Assembly: GCA_028554795.2 (NCBI GenBank)
Contig: CM068832.1
Coordinates: forward strand, 84,008,049-84,072,048
Direction of reading: 5' to 3'
DNA from: Sinohyriopsis cumingii
Taxonomy: Eukaryota; Mollusca; Bivalvia; Unionida; Unionidae
DNA: 64,000 nucleotides
The first letter of the stretch is position 1. Each line of letters starts with the position of its first letter. Both the position numbers and the translations under genes were made by a program. Below, piece by piece: positions 5,095-64,000 of this stretch. Below the pieces are notes generated by a model. The model had not been told where the DNA came from, ran no database searches, and saw only the letters and a list, made by a program, of their open reading frames with translations.

Positions 5095-6519
5095 AGCCTT
5101 CTAATTATACAAGTTTCATTACATTGGTCGATAATTAGTCACATGTGATGACACTTGTAACTAATCAAACCACAACAACTGAGAGCAGACTAAGCACTGA
5201 TATTTATATGGTACAGTGGCAATATACAGTCTGTCTGCCGCAACACATGAAACAAACTGGACAAATCTGAAAGCCTTGAATTTGACTTTATTTATCTGTA
5301 TGGTAGAACAGAACCTGAGTTGAAAAGCTTTTAAAGAAAGACCTTGATATCAAACCTAATAATAACTGCAGGAGTTATATTATGGATAATTAACCATTCT
5401 CTCAGTTTCAAACTGGGCATTCTATCCCATGGGGTTCTAAATGTAAACCAAGTGTAACTGATATCCTAATGAACTGTAAAGACCATAGCAGCACAACAAC
5501 AGGGGACCAGATATGTCCAGATCCAGAAATCATAGACCAGTTTCAAACTGATGATGAACCACATAAAAATTACACATCTGCTAGAACTTATGTTATGAAG
5601 ATAACTTAAATTGCATTATTATTAATCCTCCTCCTCACATTCATCATAATTGAGATGCATCATATATGTTTTATTGTAAAATAGTTTATGCAACATAATT
5701 CAGTGAAGACCTTTGCTGCCAATTTACCAGTGAACCATTTGTTTCAATGAACATATTTTATGTTGTAACAAGGAGCATCATTTAAACATTATGATACATT
5801 TATCATACCTGTATATGAAATCTTAATACTAACACTTATACTTGCAATACTACTACTAATAAAAACACCTGCATTGATATTTTGATTATGTTCAATTGGA
5901 CTTGTATCTAAATGATCACCAGCTGTATGAAAAGACATATTTCAATATATAGATATTGGATGGAATACTAGTTACCACAATTGAATAGTCATATGATAAA
6001 TGATATATTATTTTAAACAATTTATATTTGCAGTGAAACATACTTTTACATTATTTTCCCTTAAATTTCATTTATAGAGCAGTATACTCTGCATTCATTA
6101 AATTACTGAAATGGTTAATAATACAACAACAAATACTGCAACTTCCAGAATCACAAAAATCAAAAGATATAAACAGAAACTTCCCTACATGTATAAACAG
6201 TTGTCACTTAATAGACAGAACTATGAAGATTTAAAATAGGATGTTAACAAATTAGGTATTCAAGTTAAAAAGAAAAAAATACCAAGTAAGCTTACTACCA
6301 AAAAATCAAACAATAACAGTGAATTTTAGTACATTCTCAGGAAACAGAATATATGATTTTTCTTAACTTGATCTGATACATCTTAAATCTATAGAAAATG
6401 ATTCATATTGTATGACTAAAATATTATGTAAACAAAAATTCCATCACTTTTTTCAGATGCAACATGCATACCCCAACCCATCCTTCTTGATCATAAAGTA
6501 TACCAGCATTCCACTATAA
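5095..6519. other. Intergenic DNA, no gene seen
   Basis: AT-rich, with stops in all frames and no ORF above 60 codons of protein-like composition. No repeat structure noticed. Confidence 0.6.
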
Positions 6520-6715
6520 GTTGGGGAGCTGTAGTGGCTCAGTGGTTAGCTTTCTGGACCTGTGAAATAAGGTAGGTTCAAATTCTACCATCAGACCAAC
6601 CTGGGTTAGCTACCATGGTGTGTCCTTGGGCAAGGCACTATACTTAAAGTGCCTTGGCACTAAATAACTTACTTGTGTTGGTTTACCATAAAAGGCCAAA
6701 CCAAACACAAAAAAA
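6520..6715 (+). mobile_element. tRNA-derived SINE
   Basis: A tRNA-like head has an A box (TGGCTCAGTGGTTAGC, from about 6534) and a B box (GGTTCAAATTC, from about 6574). It is followed by a body with the block CCTTGGGCAAGGCACT at about 6625-6640, common in animal SINE bodies, and an A-rich tail at 6706-6722. It is an old copy with no visible target-site duplication. Confidence 0.6.
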
Positions 6716-6722
6716 ACAACAA

Positions 6723-7524
6723 CTTTAAAATATGAGTTTTGTCAATACTAAGTAAAGGAAAATCATACTGAAGAAATGTTTTTGTTAATACAGTTTAATG
6801 GATCTAAAAAATCTCTTTCTTCTGCAGGAGTTTAAAATGTTAAATTAAAAAGGTCATGGTACACATTGCTTTGTTTGTACACATCAGGCTCCGTAACCCA
6901 TATCCAACTAAAAATTTTAGTAGAGTCTGAATAAAACATATTTTAATCTGGATGATAATATTCTTTCTCCATTCATATATTACACCACCAAGATTGATCC
7001 AAATAAGATTACATTTTACTATAACACTGAGGATGAGTATGCCTCTTAACAACTGACAAATGTGGAGAGAATGGAGTTAAACTGAACTTTGATTTCTTTT
7101 CAACCATAGCACAAGATGATCATTTATTATGAAAAAACCTGAATAAAGTTGGAGTTCATAACCATGACAGTCTTGATATAATATAAATTCAATATATTAT
7201 TGTTGTCTTGAGGTATAGTTCTGTATATTACAATTTCACACAAGATCAGGGTATATTTTAGTACCATACAGTTAATTCGGGATTGTATTAATACCTATTC
7301 TGGTGAATGAACATTAAATAAGATTTACTATTTTGGAACCAGTTGCAATAAAGTTTACTAAACAAGAGAAAATATGACTTTACTATAATATCTAAAATGT
7401 AAAATCTGCAAACAGAATACTTGCTTGACTTTACACTTCAATTATTTATTTGAAATAAATTTATACAAATGGCATTAAATTGGGTTTCAGGCTGGTAATG
7501 ACAATGGTAGTAGTGAATAGGGAC
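6723..7524. other. Intergenic DNA, no gene seen
   Basis: AT-rich. The minus-strand ORF at 6840-7052 has no motif and no promoter or splice context. Nothing else supported. Confidence 0.5.
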
Positions 7525-7745
7525 AGTCTAGGGACTAGGGAACTTCCATGTTAAAAAGGGTATATCCACTCTGGGGACTATGTAATTTAACATGGGAGAA
7601 AAAAAAATATCCATTCTAGGGACAAGGGGAATTTAACATGGGAGAAAGAAAAAAAACTATTCACTCTAGGGACAAGGGAAATTGAACATGGGGAATAAAT
7701 CGTGGGACTGTCTTGGGACTAGGGGAAATGGAACAGGGTTGGGAC
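7525..7745. repeat. Degenerate minisatellite, about 48-bp units, five copies
   Basis: The core CTNGGGACWAGGGGAA...AACATGGGGAA recurs at about 7528, 7570, 7616, 7666 and 7712, with purine-rich spacers. It lies just outside the virus-like gene block and may be the subterminal repeat of that element, which is inference. Confidence 0.6.
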
Positions 7746-7864
7746 CCTATTTTAATAAGGTCCCGACCTGATGGGTCTATGAAAATGGTACAGGCGAAAA
7801 TTGAAACAGGGAGGGGTCTCTATTTTTTTATTATTTTTTTAAACAAAAAAATAAAAAAAGGGGT

Positions 7865-7925
7865 AGGCAATTGAAAGTCAAGATCTTTTCGAGAGATAGG
7901 AATGGCCCTGAAAAGGGCCTTTGGT
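7865..7925 (+). repeat. Inverted repeat arm flanking the divergent gene pair (left)
   Basis: About 58 bp starting GGCAATTGAAAGTC and reaching GGCCCTGAAAAGGGCC. It matches the reverse complement of 8982-9042 at roughly 85%. The match covers the histone-type stem-loop, the spacer and purine element beyond it, and 14 bp more. The two 3' ends of the gene pair therefore share a duplicated 3'-processing cassette. Confidence 0.85.
7884..7925 (-). promoter_or_regulatory. Histone-mRNA-type 3' stem-loop and downstream element (minus strand)
   Basis: Read on the minus strand, ACCAAA is followed by GGCCCTTTTCAGGGCC (7919-7904): a 6-bp stem with a UUUC loop, identical to a standard metazoan histone-mRNA 3' stem-loop including the CCAAA flank bound by SLBP. 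Seven bases later comes TCTCTCGAAAAGA, a purine-rich block where the U7-binding histone downstream element normally lies. It starts about 12 nt after the TAA of the minus-strand ORF at 7932. Function is inferred from sequence alone. Confidence 0.8.
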
Positions 7926-7931
7926 TTTATG

Positions 7932-8177
7932 TTAATATACCCTTAACATAAAGGGCATCTGTGACATCTTCTTCTTGACCTTAGGCTGCGCCTGACTGCA
8001 GGACCATAGATTAAGACTCTTTTGAGGCATCCTTGATACTCCACATAAGATTCTTCGCATCCACAGGCTGGTGTCTGTCCTGTGGATAACTGTCCAGTTG
8101 GATCGGACATACATTGGTATGTCCGTCCGGAACATCATCGAAGACACAAGCGTTGAAGATTGTACGTGGATCCACAT
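7932..8177 (-). pseudogene. Left gene of the divergent pair, unknown product, probably decayed
   Basis: The 81-codon ORF begins with an ATG (8177-8175) about 45 bp downstream of a TATAAATA box on the same strand and ends 12 nt before the histone-type stem-loop. Its composition is not convincing. A second minus-strand frame over the same DNA, lacking an ATG and broken by two TAA codons each one C-to-T change from CAA, looks more protein-like: acidic, with an FNACVFDD-type stretch near the start and GQEEDVTDALY near the end. I therefore read the locus as a frameshifted or stop-damaged small gene of about 90 codons. No core-histone sequence is present in any frame. Product unknown. Confidence 0.45.
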
Positions 8178-8396
8178 GTTGGGGTGCTGAGTAACAGTGA
8201 AGGAATGCAGTGAACTGTACTTATTTATAGGGAGAGGAAGGACTGAAACGGATTGAGTTTGTTGACCAATCCAAACACGCGTTACAAAATTCAGTCAGCC
8301 CACGTCCAATCCGAAGAGAGCAGTCTGTGACGTCACATAGTCTATATAGATTCGCTAGCGCCTGTGCGCAGTCAATCTAAGCGACAGTTTTTCAAC
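8178..8396. promoter_or_regulatory. Bidirectional promoter of the divergent gene pair
   Basis: A minus-strand TATA box (CTATAAATAAG, 8231-8221) serves the left gene, and a plus-strand TATATAGA (about 8343-8350) serves the right gene. Between them are two CCAAT boxes (8266-8270, 8306-8310) and a perfect CRE, TGACGTCA (8328-8335). TATA plus CCAAT boxes in about 220 bp between divergent genes is the layout of animal replication-dependent histone gene pairs and also of compact DNA viruses. Confidence 0.7.
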
Positions 8397-8965
8397 ATGA
8401 AGGAAACTCAGAAAACGATCAGTTGGGGTGCACTGATGGTGGAGACTACCCAAGGGAACCCAGACTTACTTTCAGAAGAGGTGAATTGGGATTTTGTGGA
8501 TTTTTTTACCTTGCAAGAATTTGTTCCTGAACCTTCGTCACCTTCTCCTTCATTACCGCACATGGAAAATGTTAGACAGAGACAGAAAGAAGAATTGGAG
8601 AAATTTATACAACAGCAAAAGGAAGCGGAACAAGCTTTTCTCCTACAGCAACAGCAGCAAGAAGAAGAGGTAAGAAAAAACAACAACAAGAAGAAGCAGC
8701 AGCAAAGAAACAAGGGTGTCAAAATCAAATGGTCACGGTACTGTTAGACATTTTAGCGGAGTTAAGAAGTCTGAAACAAATGTATCAGACTTCTTTATTA
8801 CGGCTGAAGAGAATACGACCTTCCCGAGCTAAACACTCCAAGCCTGTGACTACGCCTACCGCACCACCCTTAGTGATTTCAACGAAATCATCATCAACAG
8901 TACGCAGTCCAGAATTAGGCCTTGGCCGTGGCAAAGGCTTAAGACAGTTAAAGTTAATTGCTTAA
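8397..8965 (+). pseudogene. Right gene of the divergent pair, Q/E-rich coiled-coil protein, one frameshift
   Basis: An ATG at 8364 lies only about 15 bp after the TATA box, so the next ATG at 8397 is the better start. The first frame gives an acidic N-terminus, a Pro/Ser stretch, then a strong Gln/Glu coiled coil (8580-8680). It runs out at a stop at 8745. A second frame is open through the same Q/E/K region and continues as a hydrophobic heptad segment (ILAELRSLKQMY) and a basic, Gly-rich tail ending LGLGRGKG...LIA at TAA 8963. The frame change falls in the CAA/GAA/CAG repeats (about 8660-8710), where slippage is expected. One protein of about 190 residues is likely. The stop lies 22 nt before the histone-type stem-loop. 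Family unknown; a small basic virion or DNA-binding protein is possible but unproven. Confidence 0.5.
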
Positions 8966-8980
8966 ACTCACCCCTTACAC

Positions 8981-9027
8981 CAAAAAAGGCCCTTTTCAGG
9001 GCCATCCACGTCTCTCGAAAAGAGATA
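8981..9027 (+). promoter_or_regulatory. Histone-mRNA-type 3' stem-loop and downstream element (plus strand)
   Basis: ACACCAAAAAA precedes GGCCCTTTTCAGGGCC (8988-9003): 6-bp stem, UUUC loop. After a 7-base spacer comes TCTCTCGAAAAGA, at the same spacing as on the other gene. It begins 22 nt after the TAA at 8963-8965, the usual distance for replication-dependent histone mRNAs. No AATAAA lies between the stop and the loop. Confidence 0.8.
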
Positions 9028-9042: not shown

Positions 9043-9297
9043 ATAACTAAAAAGAATCATTTTACCCAATAGTACCTGTCTGTGTATGAGTGTGCGTGAG
9101 TGTAGGTTCTTATTTTAAAATCAAAACCCAAAGACACTTACCTTTTATAATTAATTTATTCTTTTATAAATATTTACAATTCACAATTCACAACAGAGCA
9201 CTTTAAAAAGTTCATAGACTTATTCTGTCTCATTGTTCACTCTCTGTTTTTTTAATTTCTTCACCGTCATAGTCTTTTCCTCCTCTTCCTCCTCACT

Positions 9298-9809: not shown

Positions 9810-12800
9810 ATGAAATGATCCAATTCATTTGAGAAGAAAGAAGAAGAAAATAAGAGGCAGAAACGTGATCTATCGCCTCGTACCAGGGCTGAAGTCTTGG
9901 CACAAATTCATGCCAGTGATTTTGAAGAGGACATGAGTGAACCAGAATCCAAACCCTCTAAACAAAGTTTACCACCCTTAGTCAACTCTGAATAGTACTA
10001 TGACATTCGAGAGACGGAAAAGCGTCCCTCTAGAAAATTTAGAACTACGGCTTACAAATACACAGTGAAGTTTAAAGATTTCAAGTCTGAAGTACTGTTA
10101 GAGAAAGCAGAAGGGTTCATCACCAACATGTGGGATTCTTTGCTCACCACACTCAAGCGACAATGTCAACCCAAAGAAGATGATCGCTTGAGACTTTCCA
10201 TACAACATGACGGCTTGAAATCCCCTGTTTGGATCGAATTTCAACACGTGCAACAATCTAATGACCAGTTTGACATCACCGATGGAAAAGCCACACTGGA
10301 CATGACCCACGTCTCTCCTCCTCAAGGGACCGGACAATGCAGAAAGACCTTATTGGTCAACAACCTTCGCATTACCAAAACAAGTCTTGTCCAGATTAAC
10401 AATTTTCAAGACCACATGTGTTTAGCCCGAGCCATCGTGGTGGGATGAACCTATGCCGACAAGAACGACACGGTAGAATGGAAAAGAGCCTGGGAGAACA
10501 TTCGAAAATCGAACCGAGCCAAACAACGAAATGAAGCAGAACTTCTGTTACAACAAGCATGCCTGTCCAAAGACACATCCTGTGGCATTCCTGAGATGCA
10601 AAAATTGCAAGATGCCCTAGCTCCACGATACACCTTGAAAGTGCACCCTCAAGAAGTGCGCGGGTCTCTGTTGTTTCGAGGGAAAGACTTTAAGGATGGA
10701 AAATACATTCACCTCTATCATCACGATGACCATTTCGATACCATTACCACTATCACTGGATTCCTGGGATACAAATATTACTGTGAGAAATGTGACTTAT
10801 GATGGTTATAATAATCGAGAGCAACACAAACATTGTGGATCGAAATGCTCAGAATGTTTGGCCTCTCAACCCTGTCTGAGCGAAGGGCAAGAACCAGTGC
10901 ATTGTCCTGCTTGTCTGCGCACATTTGTCAGCCCTGCCTGTTACCAACAACATCTGAAGATGCAAGGTTCACAGAAGAAATGTGCTTGTCAACTCCTGAG
11001 ATTGTGCCCAATGTGTGGACAAGGTCTATGTATCAACAGTACCAAGGCACACGTATGTTCAAGAAAGAAAAAATGTCACATTTGTCACTGCATCGTGGAC
11101 TTGGAACACCAATGCTACATGCAAAAATACCAATCCCAACCAGAGAAAGAGGATGGTCACAAGAAGAAGAAAGGCAATTTCATCTTTTTCGATTTCGAAT
11201 GCATGCAAGAGACCGGTATTCACATTCCTAATTTCTGTGTGTCTCATCGAGCGTGCGAGAAGTGATTCAAGAACTTATCTTGAGTTATTGCCCTCACTGC
11301 AGTAAGATTCCTGGAGGGCGTGAAAAAATCTTTCAAGGACCGAACACACTAGCCGATTTCACACAATGGGTCTTAGACCCCATCGACAAGACGTGGAGCC
11401 AAGAGGACATCGAACATTATTATGGAGAATGTCATCACCATGCCACGGTGATGGCTGATAATTTCTCCGGATACGATGGACAGTTTCTTTTGAGATGCTA
11501 TACGGAACGTGGCACTGAGCGTCCTAAAGTCACTTTGAACGGAGCCAAAATCATTTTCTTGCAAGTGGGACAAGTGCAGTTTAAAGATTCGATGAGCTAC
11601 TTAGCCATGCCTTTGAGTCGAATGCCTAAAATGTTTGGAATGACAGAAATGGCTAAAGGGTACTTTCCACACTTTTTCAATACAGAAGCCAATCAACACG
11701 CCGGTCTACCCCATTTGCCTCAGGCTCACTATTACGACCCTGACAACATGCGTACCGAACGAGAAACTTTCTATGCTTGGTACCAGGCTCACGCCTCGGA
11801 CCGTTTCGACTTTCAGGAAGAAATGCTAAAGTATCGTCATTCCGACGTGGACATTTTACGGCGATGCTGTGGAAAATTTCGAGAACTGTTCATGGAACAC
11901 GGAGGGGTTGATCCTTTGAAAGAAGCTTGCACCATTGCCAAAGTGTGTTCCTTAGTCTACCGACAACGATTCATGCTTGAAAACACTGTGGCTGTCATCA
12001 GTCCTCAAATGACCAACTATGTCAAACGTCAATACTCGGTCAAAGCCCCATGCTGGTTGCATTACTTGTGCGACAAGGAAGACAAATGGATTCAGCATGC
12101 CTGCAACGGACAGGGCGAAAAGATCATCGGAATGCATTCGGTCGATGGCTGGGACTTAGAAAACCCCAAGATCATGTACGAGTTTAACGGTTGCTTATTT
12201 CACGGATGTCCCGTCTGTTACCCTGACCGCGGCACTAAAAATCAGTTCTTACAACGAACCATGGAAGACTTGTACCAGGCCATTTGTCAGCGACGCCTAA
12301 AGTTAGAACAGGAAGGATACCAAGTGATGGAAATGTGGGAACACAAATACGATCACCGTTTGAACACCGATCCCGAGTTTAAACGCCTCATGGAAAGTTA
12401 CCAGTTCATGGACCCCCTGAACCCGAGGGATAGTTTGTACGGAGGAAGGACCAATGCCACCTGTTTGCTGTACCAAGCTGATGAAGAGAAAGGAGAAGAA
12501 ATCAAATACTTGGACGTGTGTTCACTGTATCCCTACAAGTGCAAATATTATTGCTTTCCTGCAGGGCACCCACAATTGTTCACCGAACACATCGACCTAA
12601 AAAACATTCGACACTACGAAGGCTTGATCAAGTGCAAAGTTTTGCCTCCCACGAACCTATACCATCCCGTCTTACCTCGCCATTGCCAAGGCAAACTTAT
12701 CTTTCCTTTGTGCTGTACTTGTGCTGAAACGTGCAACCAAGATCAACCTTGTCATCACACCCAGGAAGAACGGGCCTTGATGGGGACATGGGTCAGCATA

Positions 12801-13808
12801 GAATTGTTCAAAGCTCTGAACATGGGATACCAACTGTTAGAAGTGTACGAAATTTGCCACTTTCCCAAGACACAATAATTCCACAAGGGTGACCCCACGC
12901 AGAAAGGCATTTTCGCAGACTACGTGGATGCCTTTTTGAAACTGAAGCAAGAAGCCAGTGGCTATCTGTCCTGGTGTCACACTCCCGAAGACCAAAAGAC
13001 ATTCAGAGAGAAATTCTGGGCACAAGAAGGCATTACTTTAGATCACATTGAGAAAAACGAAGGCAGGCGATCGTTTGCCAAAGTGATGTTAAATTGCTTG
13101 TGGGGTAAAATGGCACAATGACCGTGTTTACCCAAGACGGAGTATTTGACCGAACCTTCCCGCTACTTTCAGATGATTCACGACAAAGCCAAATTCATGA
13201 AACACGTGGACGTCGTTCGTGAGGATTTGATCTTGGTGAATTACGAAGAAGATCTGAACTTTGTAGAAGATGACCCCTTTGGAAATGTCATCATTGCAGC
13301 TTACATGACAGCTCATGCTCGCTTAAAATTGTACGAATCTTTAGAACTGTTAGGGGAACGTGTCTTGTACTTTGACATGGACAGTTGCATTTATATCGAT
13401 CACCCGAGTCAACAGCACCCTGACATCGAAGGAGACCGTTTAGGAGCCTGGACAGACGAGCACCCCGATGACAAGATTCTAAGTTTCGTCAGTGGTGGTC
13501 CCAAAAATTACGGCTATGAATACTGGGACAAACAAGAAGTGCACACGAAGTGTAAAGTGAAAGGACTTACTCTGAATTATCGTACCAGTCGAGTGGTCAA
13601 CTTTGATGTATTGAAAGAAGCCTTGCAGTCTAGAGAAAGTGACCACCTATCAACCCAACAAGATTGTACGTTTACCCACACACCACATCGTCAGTCGACC
13701 CTTGGAAAAAGTCTATCAAATCGTGTAGCAGAAGCGAGTGCGGCTTCCCACCCACTTTACTTTGCCGTATGGACATGTCGGTATAAAACATTGGTTGTAA
13801 GAGGATAG
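9810..13808 (+). pseudogene. Protein-primed family B DNA polymerase (Polinton/adintovirus type), broken
   Basis: This is a DNA_pol_B_2-type polymerase. Going along the gene there is a basic N-terminal region; a Cys/His-rich zone (10785-11130); Exo I FDFE (11191-11199); Exo II DNFSGYD (about 11456-11476), where His is expected but Asp is seen; Exo III YRHSDVD (11832-11852); a GGRTNA block; motif A DVCSLYP (12513-12533); motif B K..LNC.WGK (13081-13107); and motif C FDMDS (13371-13385) instead of the usual DTDS. Breaks: in-frame stops at 9816, 9993, 10446, 12876 and 13119, and frame changes near 10790-10802 and 11245-11265. The same frame resumes after each stop, so these are lesions rather than exon ends. 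Each stop is one C-to-T change from CGA, CAA or CAG. The family replicates linear DNA with a terminal protein primer. No integrase, packaging ATPase, protease or capsid gene is seen nearby. Confidence 0.9.
13782..13788 (+). promoter_or_regulatory. TATA box of the BIR gene
   Basis: TATAAAA lies inside the 3' end of the polymerase reading frame, 36 bp before the BIR ATG. It is preserved in the right arm (about 61500-61506, minus strand). It suggests the BIR gene is transcribed independently of the broken polymerase. Confidence 0.5.
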
Positions 13809-13823
13809 CCACCCACCAGAAGG

Positions 13824-14294
13824 ATGACTTCGCCACAGCAAGAATCGAGTGAGAAATCCAGTGAGAACTCCAAGTTCAAACCCTACCATTTTCCAGTCTT
13901 CTTACCTGACTATTGTGATTGTGCCCGTCGATTGGACCTGTTTCAAAAATGGCCTACGGATAGGGAAGGATTACCTTCTTCGTATGTTTTAGCTAGAACA
14001 GGATTTGTCTACTTCGGACCTGAGTCAGGATTGGGATACGAAGTACAGTGTTTCGCTTGCGGACTGAAGTTACGAATGGATCTATGTATCTACAAAGATT
14101 CAGCTATTCTGGAACATACTCGATGGTCTCCGCACTGCCCTTACCTTTCAATGGCCTTTCCACCCATTAAACTACGGTACAATTATGACGGTACCTTAGA
14201 GACGGTACCTTCCAAAACTAGACGTAAACACATTGCATCCTATTTCATTGTTGTTTCTTTTCCACATAATAGCTTATTTTTTATAAAATGTTAA
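13824..14294 (+). CDS. Single-BIR (IAP-like) protein
   Basis: Intact 156-codon ORF starting 15 bp after the polymerase stop. Residues about 25-110 form one BIR domain: an R-LD-F--WP start, GFVYFGP, then CFAC...H-TRWSPHC, giving the C-x2-C-x18-H-x6-C zinc site (usual H spacing is 16, so the loop is slightly longer). There is no RING, CARD or second BIR. The last 25 residues are hydrophobic and may be accidental coding past the original end. BIR proteins bind caspases or IAP antagonists and block apoptosis; insect and molluscan DNA viruses carry such genes. The right-arm copy differs at only two residues, both outside the zinc ligands, so this frame survives while the neighbouring polymerase does not. 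Host capture or domestication is possible but unproven. Confidence 0.8.
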   Translation: MTSPQQESSEKSSENSKFKPYHFPVFLPDYCDCARRLDLFQKWPTDREGLPSSYVLARTGFVYFGPESGLGYEVQCFACGLKLRMDLCIYKDSAILEHTRWSPHCPYLSMAFPPIKLRYNYDGTLETVPSKTRRKHIASYFIVVSFPHNSLFFIKC

Positions 14295-14817: not shown

Positions 14818-16337
14818 ATAATAATAATAATAATGAGGACTTTGTATAGCACCTAATCTTTAGAAGCTCTAAGCGCTTTGCAACATTAGACAACATAAAA
14901 ACATACACAATGATATGATTACAAAAACAAACACCGTGAAATTAGAAAACATAAAAAACATGCTGAGAATATTTAAGGTAGTTAACATTATTAAGTCATT
15001 AAGTTTGTTTTTGCAGTCAGAATAAGTAGTTTTGAGAGCACCCTTGAATGGGATCACTGCGTCTTTGTGTCTAAGTTCAGTGGGCAATTCATTCCATGTT
15101 GCTGGGCCCTGGTATGCAAAAGAATGCTGTCCATGTGACTCTGTTTTCATAGTGAGAATAATGAGTATATGATTGTCGGAAGAGGAGTGTAAGTATCTTG
15201 CTTGTGTGTACACATAGGTGAGGTCGGATAGGTATGTTGGACTAGAGTCTGTCAGTGAAACGTAGCACAGAGAACTAATGTTGTGTTTGATTCTGGATCG
15301 AATGGATAGCCAATGTTGGGTACAGAGCAGCGGGGAGGTGTGCTCTGATTGTGGTACTCTAAGTATGATCCAAGCAGCTATGTTTTGAACTTTTTGAAGT
15401 TTCTGCAGTAGATATTAAGATGAACCAGACAGAATTGAGTTACCATAGTCCAGTCTTGAAAGTAGTAATGAACACACAAGTGTTTTAGTGGCATCAACTG
15501 AAAGATATCTGAGAATGGAACTGATGCGTCTCAGCTCAAGATATGCAGCCTTGCATATGTTCATGACATGTTGGTGCAATGTGAGAGTACTGTCCAGAGT
15601 AACACCTAGGTTTTGTACTGATTGTGTGATTTTAATGTTGGTGTTGCTGATATTTATTGTGTGAGGTAAAGGATGTGAATGAGAAAGTCTTTGTGTTGTA
15701 ATCAGAATGGCCTCAGTTTTATCATCATTCATCTGCAGCTTGTTACAAGTCATCCATGATTTCACATCAGAAATGCACATCTCTACACCTTGGATGGTAG
15801 CATCAACTTCAGTTGGGTGGCTAGATTTGTATATTTGGGTGTCATCAGTGTACAATTGGTGAGACACTGGATGATGATCTATGACACTTGAGAGCAGCTG
15901 AGTGTATAGAGTGTAGAGAAAAGGTCCAAGAACAGACCCCTGTGCAACACCACAACATAGATCAACTGGGCTGGAGTGTAATCTATTTGCAGACACAATT
16001 TGTGTCCTGTGGCAAGGGCGATATGCAGATTGTACATTGCTAAAAAGACTGTTTGAATTCAGACAAGATGCAAGCTGGGATTGAACAACCTTTTGTAAGA
16101 TTTTTTATATGAATTGGAGATTAGAAACCGGGCAGTAGTTCTTTAAATCCTTATGGTGTAGTGTTAGTTTCTTCAGCAGAGGTTTTACAATGGGAGTTTT
16201 GAAAAATGATGGAAATTACGCTGATGAGAGAGAGGTATTAATAACATCAGTTAGTGAAGGCAATACTGGATCTAAGCACTCAAGCAGCAGTAATGTTGGA
16301 ATTGGATCAAGTTCACATGACTTTGGTGCACTCTAGG
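14818..16337 (-). mobile_element. L2/CR1-clade LINE fragment (5'-truncated, broken)
   Basis: Read on the minus strand. Reverse-transcriptase pieces are at 15996-15415, including GVAQGSVLGPFLYTLY and LYTDDTQIYK (the YxDD active site), then the thumb and connection part. At 15213-14869 is the C-terminal GPATWNELPTELR...FK.ALKT block typical of this clade. The 3' UTR ends in an AGCGCTTAGAGCTTCTAAAGA-type segment and an (ATT)n tail at 14833-14818. Stops and frameshifts break the ORF, and the 5' end is truncated near 16337. Confidence 0.85.
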
Positions 16338-34375: not shown

Positions 34376-40976
<6,601 letters not shown>

Positions 40977-60993: not shown

Positions 60994-61464
60994 TTAACAT
61001 TTTATAAAAAATAAGCTATTATGTGGAAAAGAAACAACAATGAAATAGGATGCAATGTGTTTACGTCTAGTTTTGGAAGGTACCGTCTCTAAGGTACCGT
61101 CATAATTGTACCGTAGTTTAATGGGTGGAAAGGCCATTGAAAGGTAAGGGCAGTGCGGAGACCATCGAGTATGTTCCAGAATAGCTGAATCTTTGTAGAT
61201 ACATAGATCCATTCGTAACTTCAGTCCGCAAGCGAAACACTGTACTTCGTATCCCAATCCTGACTCAGGTCCGAAGTAGACAAATCCTGTTCTAGCTAAA
61301 ACATACGAAGAAGGTAATCCTTCCCCATCCGTAGGCCATTTTTGAAACGTGTCCAATCGACGGGCACAATCACAATAGTCAGGTAAGAAGACTGGAAAAT
61401 GGTAGGGTTTGAACTTGGAGTTCTCACTGGATTTCTCACTCGATTCTTGCTGCGGCGAAGTCAT
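60994..61464 (-). CDS. Single-BIR (IAP-like) protein, right-arm copy
   Basis: Full-length 156-codon ORF with the same BIR zinc ligands as the left copy (CFAC...H.....C). It has two residue changes, L to T in RRLD-F and R to G in PTD-EG, both N-terminal to the zinc site. The same short spacing to the polymerase remnant and the same TATAAAA box upstream are kept. It is the only ORF of the block intact in both arms. Confidence 0.8.
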   Translation of the reverse strand: MTSPQQESSEKSSENSKFKPYHFPVFLPDYCDCARRLDTFQKWPTDGEGLPSSYVLARTGFVYFGPESGLGYEVQCFACGLKLRMDLCIYKDSAILEHTRWSPHCPYLSMAFPPIKLRYNYDGTLETVPSKTRRKHIASYFIVVSFPHNSLFFIKC

Positions 61465-61479
61465 CCTTCTGGTGGGTGG

Positions 61480-64000
61480 CTATCCTCTTACAACCAATGT
61501 TTTATACCGACATGTCCATACGGCAAAGTAAAGTGGGTGGGAAGCCGCACTCGCTTCTGCTACACGATTTGATAGACTTTTTCCAAGGGTCGACTGACGA
61601 TGTGGTGTGTGGGTAAACGTACAATCTTGTTGGGTTGATAGGTGGTCACTTTCTCTAGACTGCAAGGCTTCTTTCAATATGCCAAAGTTGACCACTCGAC
61701 TGGTACGATAATTAAGAGTAAGTCCTTTCACTTTACACTTCGTGTGCACTTCTTGTTTGTCCCAGTATTCGTAGCCGTAATTTTTGGGACCACCACTAAC
61801 GAAACTTAGAATCTTGTCATCGGGGTGCTTGTCTGTCCAGGCTCCTAAACGGTCTCCTTCGATGTCAGGGTGCTGTTGACTCGGGTGATCGATATAAATG
61901 CAACTGTCCATGTCAAAGTACAAGACACGTTCCCCTAACAGTTCTAAAGCTTCGTACAATTTTAAGCGAGCATGAGCTGTCATGTAAGCTGCAATGATGA
62001 CATTTCCAAAGGGGTCATCTTCTACAAAGTTCAGATCTTCTTCGTAATTCACCAAGATCAAATCCTCACGAACGACGTCCACGTGTTTCATGAATTTGGC
62101 TTTGTCGTGAATCATCTGAAAGTAGCGGGAAGGTTCGGTCAAATACTCCGTCTTGGGTAAACACGGTCATTGTGCCATTTTACCCCACAAGCAATTTAAC
62201 ATCACTTTGGCAAACGATCGCCTGCCTTCGTTTTTCTCAATGTGATCTAAAGTAATGCCTTCTTGTGCCCAGAATTTCTCTCTGAATGTCTTTTGGTCTT
62301 CGGGAGTGTGACACCAGGACAGATAGCCACTGGCTTCTTGCTCAGTTTCAAAAAGGCATCCACGTAGTCTGCGAAAATGCCTTTCTGCGTGGGGTCACCC
62401 TTGTGGAATTATTGTGTCTTGGGAAAGTGGCAAATTTCGTACACTTCTAACAGTTGGTATCCCATGTTCAGAGCTTTGAACAATTCTACGCTGACCCATG
62501 TCCCCGTCAAGGCCCGTTCTTCCTGGGTGTGATGACAAGGTTGATCTTGGTTGCACGTTTCAGCACAAGTACGGCACAAAGGAAACATAAGTTTGCCTTG
62601 GCAATGGCGAGGTAAGACGGGATGGTATAGGTTCGTGGGAGGCAAAACTTTGCACTTGATCAAGCCTTCGTATTGTCGAATGTTTTTTAGGTCGATGTGT
62701 TCGGTGAACAATTGTGGGTGCCCTGCAGGAAAGCAACAACATTTGCACACGTAGGGATACAGTGAACACACGTCCAAGTATTTGATTTCTTCTCCTTTCT
62801 CTTCGTCAGCTTGGTACAGCAAACAGGTGGCATTGGTCCTTCCTCCGTACAAACTATTACTTGGGTTCAGGGGGTCCATGAACTGGTAACTTTCCATGAG
62901 GCGTTTAAACTCGGGATCGGTGTTCAAACGGTGATTGTATTTGTGTTCCCACATTTCCACCACTTGGTATCCTTCCTGTTCTAACTTTAGGCGTCGCTGA
63001 CAAATGGCCTGGTACAAGTCTTCCATGGTTCGTTGTAAGAACTGATTTTTAGTGCCGCGGTCAGGGTAACAGACGGGACATCCGTGAAATAAGCAACCGT
63101 TCAACTCGTACATGATCTTGGGGTTTTCTAAGTCCCAGCCATTGACCGAATGCATTCCGATGATCTTTCGCCCTGTCCGTTGCGGGCATGCTGAATCCAT
63201 TTGTCTTCCTTGTCGCACAAGTAATGCAACCAGCATGGGGCTTTGACCGAGTATTGACGTTTGACATAGTTGGTCGTTTGAGGACTGATGACAGCCACAG
63301 TGTTTTCAAGCATGAATCGTTGTCGGTAGACTAATGAACACGCTTTGGCAATGGTGCAAGCCTCTTTTAAATGATCAACCCCTCCGTGTTCCATGAACAG
63401 TTCTCGAAATTTTCCACAGCATCGCCGTAAAATGTCCATGTCGGAACGACGATACTTTAGCATTTCTTCCTGAAAGTCGAAAGGGTCGGAGGCGTGAGCC
63501 TGGTACAAGTGAGAAAGTTTCTCGTTCGGTACGCATGTTGTCAGGGTCGTAATAGTGAGCCTGAGGCAAATGGGGTAGAACGGCGTGTTGATTGGCTTGT
63601 ATTGAAAAAATGTGGAAAGTACCCTTTAGCCATTTCTGTCATTCCAAACATTTTAGGCATTCGACTCAAAGGCATGGCTAAGTAGCTCATCGAATCTTTA
63701 AACTGCACTTGTCCCACTTGCATGAAAATGATTTTGGCTCCGTTCAAAGTGATTTTAGGACGCTCGATGCCACGTTCCGTATAACATCTCAAAAGAAACT
63801 GTCCATCGTATCCGGAGAAATTGTGAGCCATCACCGTTGCATGGTGATGACAATCTCCATAATAATGTTCGATGTCCTCTTGGCTCCACGTCTTGTCGAT
63901 GGGGTCTAAGACCCATTGTGTGAAATCGGCTAGTGTGTTCGGTCCTTGAAAGATTTTTTCACGCCCTCCAGGAATCTTACTGCAGTGAGGGCAATAACTC
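61480..64000 (-). pseudogene. Protein-primed family B DNA polymerase, right-arm copy, partial
   Basis: Mirror of 13808-11288, truncated by the window edge before the Exo I region. Shared lesions are the TGA near 62167 and the TAA near 62410. Additional frame changes not in the left copy are at about 63173 (one A fewer in an A-run), 63512 (one base lost) and 63598. Exo II here reads AHNFSGYD (63830-63807), the expected His, whereas the left copy has Asp. Motif A (DVCSLYP, about 62775-62755) is followed by VCK instead of KCK. Motif C is again FDMDS. Lesions shared with the left arm predate the duplication; the extra ones follow it, or are assembly errors. Confidence 0.9.

Follow-up and report, generated by a model that had tools for sequence, protein, structure and literature searches.

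The Divergent Gene Pair and Its 3′ Ends

The window analysed here is a stretch of 64,000 nt from the genome of the bivalve Sinohyriopsis cumingii, the assembly of which comprises 2.9 Gb in 1138 contigs. It carries a divergent pair of genes, referred to below as the minus gene and the plus gene, with a shared promoter region between them, followed by a zinc-knuckle gene, a DNA polymerase B (PolB) gene region and an ORF with a BIR domain (Table 1).

Table 1. Features of the element copy in the window (positions in the 64,000-nt stretch)
Feature	Positions	Strand	Evidence
Left terminal inverted repeat (TIR) of the provirus, with its outer tip (AGTAGTGAATAGGGAC) at 7509 and its inner edge about 9 nt ahead of the stem-loop of the minus gene	7509..7928	.	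Edge defined on relatives
Histone-downstream-element-like block TCTCTCGAAAAGA after the minus-gene loop	7884..7896	-	AAAAG core aligned with that of host H2B, H3 and H4
Histone-type stem-loop of the minus gene	7904..7919	-	Rfam RF00032, 33.5 bits (cut-off 34); exact 16-mer
Minus gene; product of 76–78 aa in related copies, its C-terminus basic and with CxxC; frame shift in this copy	7932..8177	-	Protein-level conservation, five representative copies
Shared divergent promoter region, TATA-like and CCAAT-like sites	8178..8396	.	Conserved among seven aligned copies
Plus gene; product of about 193 aa in related copies, with a long helix predicted; frame shift in this copy	8397..8965	+	Relatives and fold prediction
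Histone-type stem-loop of the plus gene	8988..9003	+	Rfam RF00032, 35.2 bits, over cut-off
Histone-downstream-element-like block TCTCTCGAAAAGA after the plus-gene loop	9011..9023	+	Alignment with host ends
Broken zinc-knuckle gene belonging to the element, not followed by a stem-loop	9241..9676	-	Pfam and relatives; AATAAA at 9160
PolB gene region, broken	9810..13797	+	Pfam DNA_pol_B_2 7.5e-31 (ORF 11451–12878); tblastn with relatives
ORF with a BIR domain, the final gene of the element identified on this side	13824..14294	+	Pfam BIR 3.4e-12

Both genes of the pair are disrupted in the window copy, with frame breaks at 8049/8047 in the minus gene and at 8645/8663 in the plus gene. Because the minus gene is frame-shifted, the 81-aa minus-strand ORF of the window is not its native reading. 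Related copies were sampled without regard to the loops by taking about every seventh of 150 scored matches to the plus gene, which gave 20 copies (the loop-blind sample). The minus-gene product has 76–78 aa in 19 of these, the frame of the remaining copy, L086, being broken to 34 aa.

As claimed in the first-pass annotation of this DNA, each gene of the pair is followed by a stem-loop of the type found at the 3′ ends of histone mRNAs and by an identical downstream block: the same 16-nt sequence, GGCCCTTTTCAGGGCC, occurs exactly at 7904–7919 on the minus strand and at 8988–9003 on the plus strand, with TCTCTCGAAAAGA seven bases 3′ of each stem. The distances of 12 and 22 nt given there between stop codon and loop hold for the stop codons of the window copy, and in the loop-blind copies other than L086 the minus-gene stem, where it is exact (18 of 19), starts 22–26 bases past the stop. 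The covariance search with the Rfam Histone3 model, proposed in the same annotation, was passed by the plus-strand loop (E = 1.6e-6 over the whole window), while the minus-strand loop (E = 1.8e-7 over 1.5 kb) fell just short of the cut-off. No other site in all 64 kb fits the stem pattern even with up to two mismatches allowed, 0.10 sites being expected by shuffling, and the two 3′ ends form the arms of a 57-nt inverted repeat with 88% identity. The earlier observation of histone-type ends at 7884–9027 is confirmed.

Identity and Gene Order of the Element

The neighbouring genes named in the annotation, encoding a zinc-knuckle protein, a PolB that we take to be protein-primed and a BIR protein, were recovered as well, the latter two by Pfam (Table 1) and the first beside the pair. 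The window copy is best described, from its sequence, as the truncated left end of an endogenous provirus of the Polinton/adintovirus type; the capsid gene and three genes found at the right end of related copies (R1, R2 and R3) have no match in the window at E ≤ 0.001. The tip of the TIR was located in the window itself, and the TIR and its inner edge were delimited on relatives, by comparing the right end of locus L052 with left ends of other copies.

On contig C7, the adjoining stretches L054, L051 and L067 together span one copy from left to right. It begins with the TIR, minus gene, plus gene, zinc-knuckle gene, PolB gene (interrupted) and two BIR ORFs; then follow an A32-like ATPase, several basic proteins, a chromodomain-bearing integrase end, a capsid ORF, a protease-like ORF, R1, R2, R3 and the second TIR. 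PolB of L051 was recognised by Pfam DNA_pol_B_2 (2.1e-24), and the packaging ATPase of the relatives by Pox_A32 (PF04665; 33.4 bits versus a cut-off of 22.8). An ORF in L068 resembles the integrase end with an identity of up to 51% over 181 aa, and in L067 the Chromo domain (PF00385) of this end exceeds the cut-off; the Pfam matches include no family of integrase catalytic cores. The 439-aa ORF that we presume to be the capsid gene matches no capsid family in Pfam; it has 1058 homologues, and among the 120 listed those with a named organism are mostly mollusc proteins designated F54H12.2-like. The protease-like ORF is likewise assumed to encode a protease.

Because of its PolB, ATPase, TIRs, integrase end and capsid homologues, the element was placed among the Polintons/adintoviruses of a mollusc-like host. 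This assignment holds on the strength of PolB, the ATPase and the TIRs, the integrase and capsid tests being weaker. With Polinton/Maverick elements and Adintoviridae it shares PolB, the A32-like ATPase, TIRs and high copy number and, less certainly, the chromodomain integrase end, the presumed capsid ORF with its F54H12.2-like homologues and the protease-like ORF. Unlike them, it has histone-type 3′ ends on five accessory genes near its termini, and the TIRs supply two of these ends.

Right-End Genes and the Terminal Inverted Repeats

The trait is more extensive than first noted, since the three right-end genes and the TIR also bear the signal. In the C7 copy, the stem is exact behind four genes (minus, plus, R1 and R2), and the loop behind R3 has decayed to GGCACTTTTCACGGCC (read in L067); five genes of this copy end in a stem-loop and a GAAAAGA block in fixed register, one of the loops being decayed. 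L052 has exact stems after R2 and R3 and a decayed stem after R1. None of the middle genes checked has a loop within 250 nt, and the genes for core replication and virion functions likewise showed none. The stems of R1 and R2 are of the form AGCCC...GGGCT, in which the outer pair is A-U where other gene types have G-C; this compensatory exchange concerns one base pair that separates gene types. The loops of R1 and R2 score 31.0–31.1 bits, below the Rfam cut-off of 34.

The right end of L052 matches the left ends of L007, L013, L014 and L016 with 89–93% identity over 518–529 nt, the match starting 9 nt before the stem, and shorter pieces of 89–287 nt, from 8–9 nt before the stem, were found in L009, L012 and L018. 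The two ends of the C7 copy are 90.7% identical over 323 nt, from 10 nt before the stem. Since the TIR includes the stem at its inner edge, the outermost genes at the two ends, although unrelated to each other, finish in the same TIR-borne signal.

The location of the outermost loops inside the TIR, together with the inverted orientation of the 57-nt repeat, could also suggest that the stem-loop acts as a DNA signal in TIR replication, packaging or transposition and that its likeness to histone ends is incidental. We consider such a role very unlikely: the internal loops behind the plus gene, R1 and R2 lie on the coding strand, about 20–45 nt past the stop in the copies read, and the GAAAAGA block, which a DNA hairpin could dispense with, holds its register and matches that of the host histone genes.

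Encoded Proteins

The annotation had stated that no frame of the window encodes a core histone, and tblastn indeed returned no core histone match anywhere in the window at E ≤ 0.01; Pfam scans of the window and of the relatives' ORFs found no histone family. The plus gene has five database homologues, one of which, P0001, matches one host copy with 100% identity over 192 residues and is practically the host's own plus-gene protein. The protein P0005 fuses plus-gene and PolB-region sequence, which we read as a further sign of linkage between the two. For R3, four database homologues with 50–53% identity were found. Among the homologues of the plus gene and the right-end genes, P0002, P0003 and P0126–P0129 derive from sources other than this genome.

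In the AlphaFold model, the plus-gene protein forms a single long helix (residues 53–136) at low overall confidence (pLDDT 69), and an R3 homologue is modelled with five helices (pLDDT 84) and has no PDB match at E ≤ 0.001; neither predicted fold hints at a histone. The median dN/dS between copies is 0.12 for the minus gene (10 pairs, dS about 1.3), 0.56 for the plus gene (15 pairs, dS about 0.10), 0.25 for R2 (3 pairs) and 0.17 for R3 (1 pair). These values suggest conserved proteins for the minus gene and for the genes at the right end, although small numbers, saturated dS and decaying copies weaken the estimates.

These data bear on the possibility that the locus is a captured fragment of a host histone cluster, in which the loops would be relics and the genes decayed histones. 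The divergent arrangement, promoter layout and 3′ ends do resemble those of a histone pair, and the stem-loop of host H2B is identical over all 16 nt. However, core histones are absent by tblastn not only from the window but also from the surroundings of the best 20 of 75 scored Histone3 matches (0 of 20 within about 1.5 kb, with queries that find host H2B, H3 and H4), all of which are copies of the element, 11 with the plus gene and 9 with right-end genes. Related copies encode conserved non-histone proteins, and the models of the plus-gene protein and the R3 homologue point the same way, the former at low confidence. Histone capture, which the annotation had named as an alternative, is therefore extremely improbable.

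Copies of the Element and Conservation of the Signal

The genome was searched for GGCCCTTTTCAGGGCCACCCA followed by GAAAAGA 2–10 bases on, the reversed pattern serving as a control. A total of 12,871 matches (6322 and 6549 on the two strands) were found, compared to none for the control, and the loops are not confined to this locus, contrary to another possibility considered in the annotation. The small part of these matches with letters read are 36 bases long, which corresponds to a fixed spacing. At the DNA level, 40 scored copies of the pair including the window, out of 7035 first-look candidates, are 98–100% identical. A protein-level search with P0001 gave 32,069 candidates, and 147 of the 150 best-scoring ones have no internal stop; these 147 copies are 97–100% identical to the query.

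In the loop-blind sample, 37 of 40 ends exceed the Rfam cut-off (19 of 20 for the plus gene and 18 of 20 for the minus gene), and the exact 16-mer is present at 18/20 and 19/20 of the two ends. At all 37 ends of this sample with the exact pattern, GAAAAGA or AAAAAGA starts at the 14th base past the stem. Much of this retention could be explained by recency alone, as the copies are closely related.

Conservation was evaluated in more diverged copies, on ends that had not been used to choose the locus, with L010, which had been selected by its plus-gene loop, omitted from the plus-gene set. At the R2 ends (10 loci), the identity is 0.938 for the stem-loop and 0.939 for the block versus 0.734 for all columns; at the plus-gene ends (10 loci), the corresponding values are 0.939, 0.964 and 0.789. 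The stem-loop is not the most conserved segment, ranking 23rd of 347 windows at the R2 ends and 80th of 323 at the plus-gene ends, and the 60 columns upstream of the latter have an identity of 0.957.

The disrupted genes of the window copy, the interruption of PolB in L051 and L054, and the broken stems present in several copies could mean that real histone-type ends, once working, are now merely inherited in dead copies. That some copies spread recently, not necessarily all of them, is indicated by the 147 stop-free genes among the 150 best-scoring of 32,069 candidates, and we regard the purely inherited state as rather unlikely, while giving it more weight than any other alternative.

Comparison with Host Histone Genes

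The host has a tandem histone repeat with 114 H4 matches, some of them partial, which are outnumbered about 113-fold by the matches to the element pattern. Host H2B ends in the same GGCCCTTTTCAGGGCC and H3 and H4 in GGCCCTTTTTAGGGCC, all with CTAGAAAAGA downstream; their Rfam scores are 38.2 (H2B), 37.7 (H4) and 35.9 bits (H3), and the best element end in the scan reaches 44. Element and host ends align without gaps, and the block of the element occupies the same columns as that of host H2B, H3 and H4.

An alignment was built from 26 of 49 listed element ends, the two ends of the window and three host ends, with visibly broken stems excluded, so that full stem pairing in it is no evidence. Its 28 element ends, chosen as intact, have a mean identity to those of the host of 0.90–0.96 for the stem-loop, 0.90 for the block and 0.39–0.68 for the flank, spacer and tail. 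The element ends share with the replication-dependent histone genes of Metazoa (RF00032) the stem-loop, the A-rich 5′ flank, the in-register purine-rich block, the ACCCA-type 3′ flank (in many copies), the short distance from the stop codon and the divergent pair. They differ in that the element proteins are not histones and in the location of the signal, which is carried by a mobile, virus-like element, its TIR included. The stem-loop signal may well have come originally from a host histone gene.

A search for the host U7 gene with Rfam RF00066 gave no hits, and control genomes gave none either; a pattern combining an anti-block sequence with an Sm site gave 6 hits versus 8 for its control. 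The two of these six hits considered most U7-like, L077 and L078, were found to read as the reverse strand of R-type ends of the element.

Polyadenylation Signals

Regarding the alternative raised in the annotation that intact relatives lack the loops and use AATAAA, the loops proved to be kept, as described above, while 9 of the 20 loop-blind copies do have AATAAA or ATTAAA no more than about 150 nt from the plus-gene stop. Such signals are found at +115 (AATAAA) and +187 (ATTAAA) of the minus gene in the C7 copy, at +90 (AATAAA) of the plus gene in L053, and in the window at 7832 (AATAAA, about 70 nt beyond the minus-gene loop) and 7756 (ATTAAA). The terminal genes could thus use ordinary poly(A) signals, with the loop as a second, regulatory or stabilising element. 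However, in none of the 20 loop-blind copies does either signal lie within about 150 nt of the minus-gene stop, three of the nine plus-gene signals precede the loop, and no poly(A) signal lies within 250 nt for R1 and R2 in L067 and L052. On balance, ordinary polyadenylation of these genes seems unlikely. The zinc-knuckle gene has no loop in the window and is followed by AATAAA about 80 nt past the end of the match; its counterpart in L053 has ATTAAA at +33 and AATAAA at +85.

Relatives in Other Genomes

No relative of PolB, the plus gene or the capsid was found in a collection of viral contigs; four stretches in it with the exact stem were taken as chance occurrences, with no block in the adjoining 30 bases and no tblastn match to element genes. 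Six Polinton loci (L068–L073) in five bacterial bins have in common with the element parts of the block comprising the ATPase, integrase, capsid and protease. These bins, from tubeworm and mussel symbionts and others, apparently contain host contamination. The annotation had suggested looking for the pair and its loops in Polinton relatives: both are present in copies within the host genome, while the six distant loci, the completeness of whose ends is not established, have no loops at E ≤ 1 and none of the terminal genes. The histone-type ends may be a lineage-specific acquisition.

The annotation knew of no description of the trait for Polinton-like elements, and full-text searches of the literature, most subscription papers being outside their reach, found no account of histone-type 3′ ends on non-histone genes of Polintons or other viruses. 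A histone connection in animal DNA viruses is known from the 'Histoid' genes of adomaviruses and tailtomaviruses, and one of these viruses, from a clam dataset, has adintovirus-like virion proteins (PMC11071296). It is the protein that is histone-like in those viruses, whereas here it is the RNA 3′ end and the proteins are not.

Possible Use of the Histone mRNA Pathway

In Metazoa, the stem-loop is bound by SLBP, and the downstream block base-pairs with U7 snRNP. Cleavage by CPSF73 about five bases past the stem yields a histone mRNA without a tail, which is produced and retained in S phase. To our knowledge, the combination of stem-loop and U7-type element in animals is all but private to replication-dependent histone genes.

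Since these cis elements follow five genes of the element in the register of the host, we infer that the terminal genes run via the histone pathway, that is, the terminal non-histone genes of an endogenous Polinton/adintovirus probably use the host machinery for the 3′ ends of replication-dependent histone mRNAs. Their mRNAs are most likely processed by SLBP and U7 like those of histones. About 20–30 nt past the stop, each of these genes has an SLBP-type stem-loop and then, in fixed register, a GAAAAGA block resembling that of the host histone genes and presumably serving U7; a cut just past the stem would produce short mRNAs lacking poly(A) tails. At both ends of the linear genome the outermost gene has its 3′ signal from the TIR, and the plus gene and two other right-end genes have internal copies of the signal. 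A likely consequence is that expression of the terminal genes, with putative accessory or regulatory functions, would be largely restricted to S phase, the time at which SLBP is available. The broader proposition, that a lineage of animal Polintons runs all its terminal genes, at both ends, through the histone mRNA pathway with the TIR as a 3′-end signal, is one to which we would give an even chance.

If so, the accessory programme of the element would be gated to S phase, which would offer a direct handle on the timing of its expression and explain how RNA libraries based on poly(A) could miss these genes. The pathway could then be borrowed wholesale by a mobile virus-like element, for five unrelated genes and a TIR. 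Being so numerous, the copies of the element could draw SLBP and U7 away from the histone genes, and the 113-fold excess over H4 matches raises the question of the load on the histone pathway.

Other Element Sequences in the Window and the Assembly

The window contains further traces of mobile elements. A short protease-like fragment of a related element (50% identity over 40 aa) is located at 36745–36864 on the minus strand, and an ORF at 15415–15780, also on the minus strand, resembles by eye a piece of a LINE-type reverse transcriptase and has no match in Pfam. The sequence to the left of the element tip (6350–7508) is common to most of the 98% copies; therefore, the window copy either is part of a repeat unit larger than the element or was spread along with the flanking sequence.

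Rearranged copies occur in the assembly. In L054 (1–10000), two copies of the element lie head to head, and one left TIR seems to be cut short at the junction; in L053 (5203–7597), the divergent pair occurs twice in tandem, with the first plus gene truncated. Five near-identical copies about 93–106 kb apart, as in a large tandem duplication, are found at 82.16–82.55 Mb of contig C14 in G000. At the right edge of the window (61126–63999, minus strand), PolB and BIR sequence of this element family occurs in a second copy, on the opposite strand.
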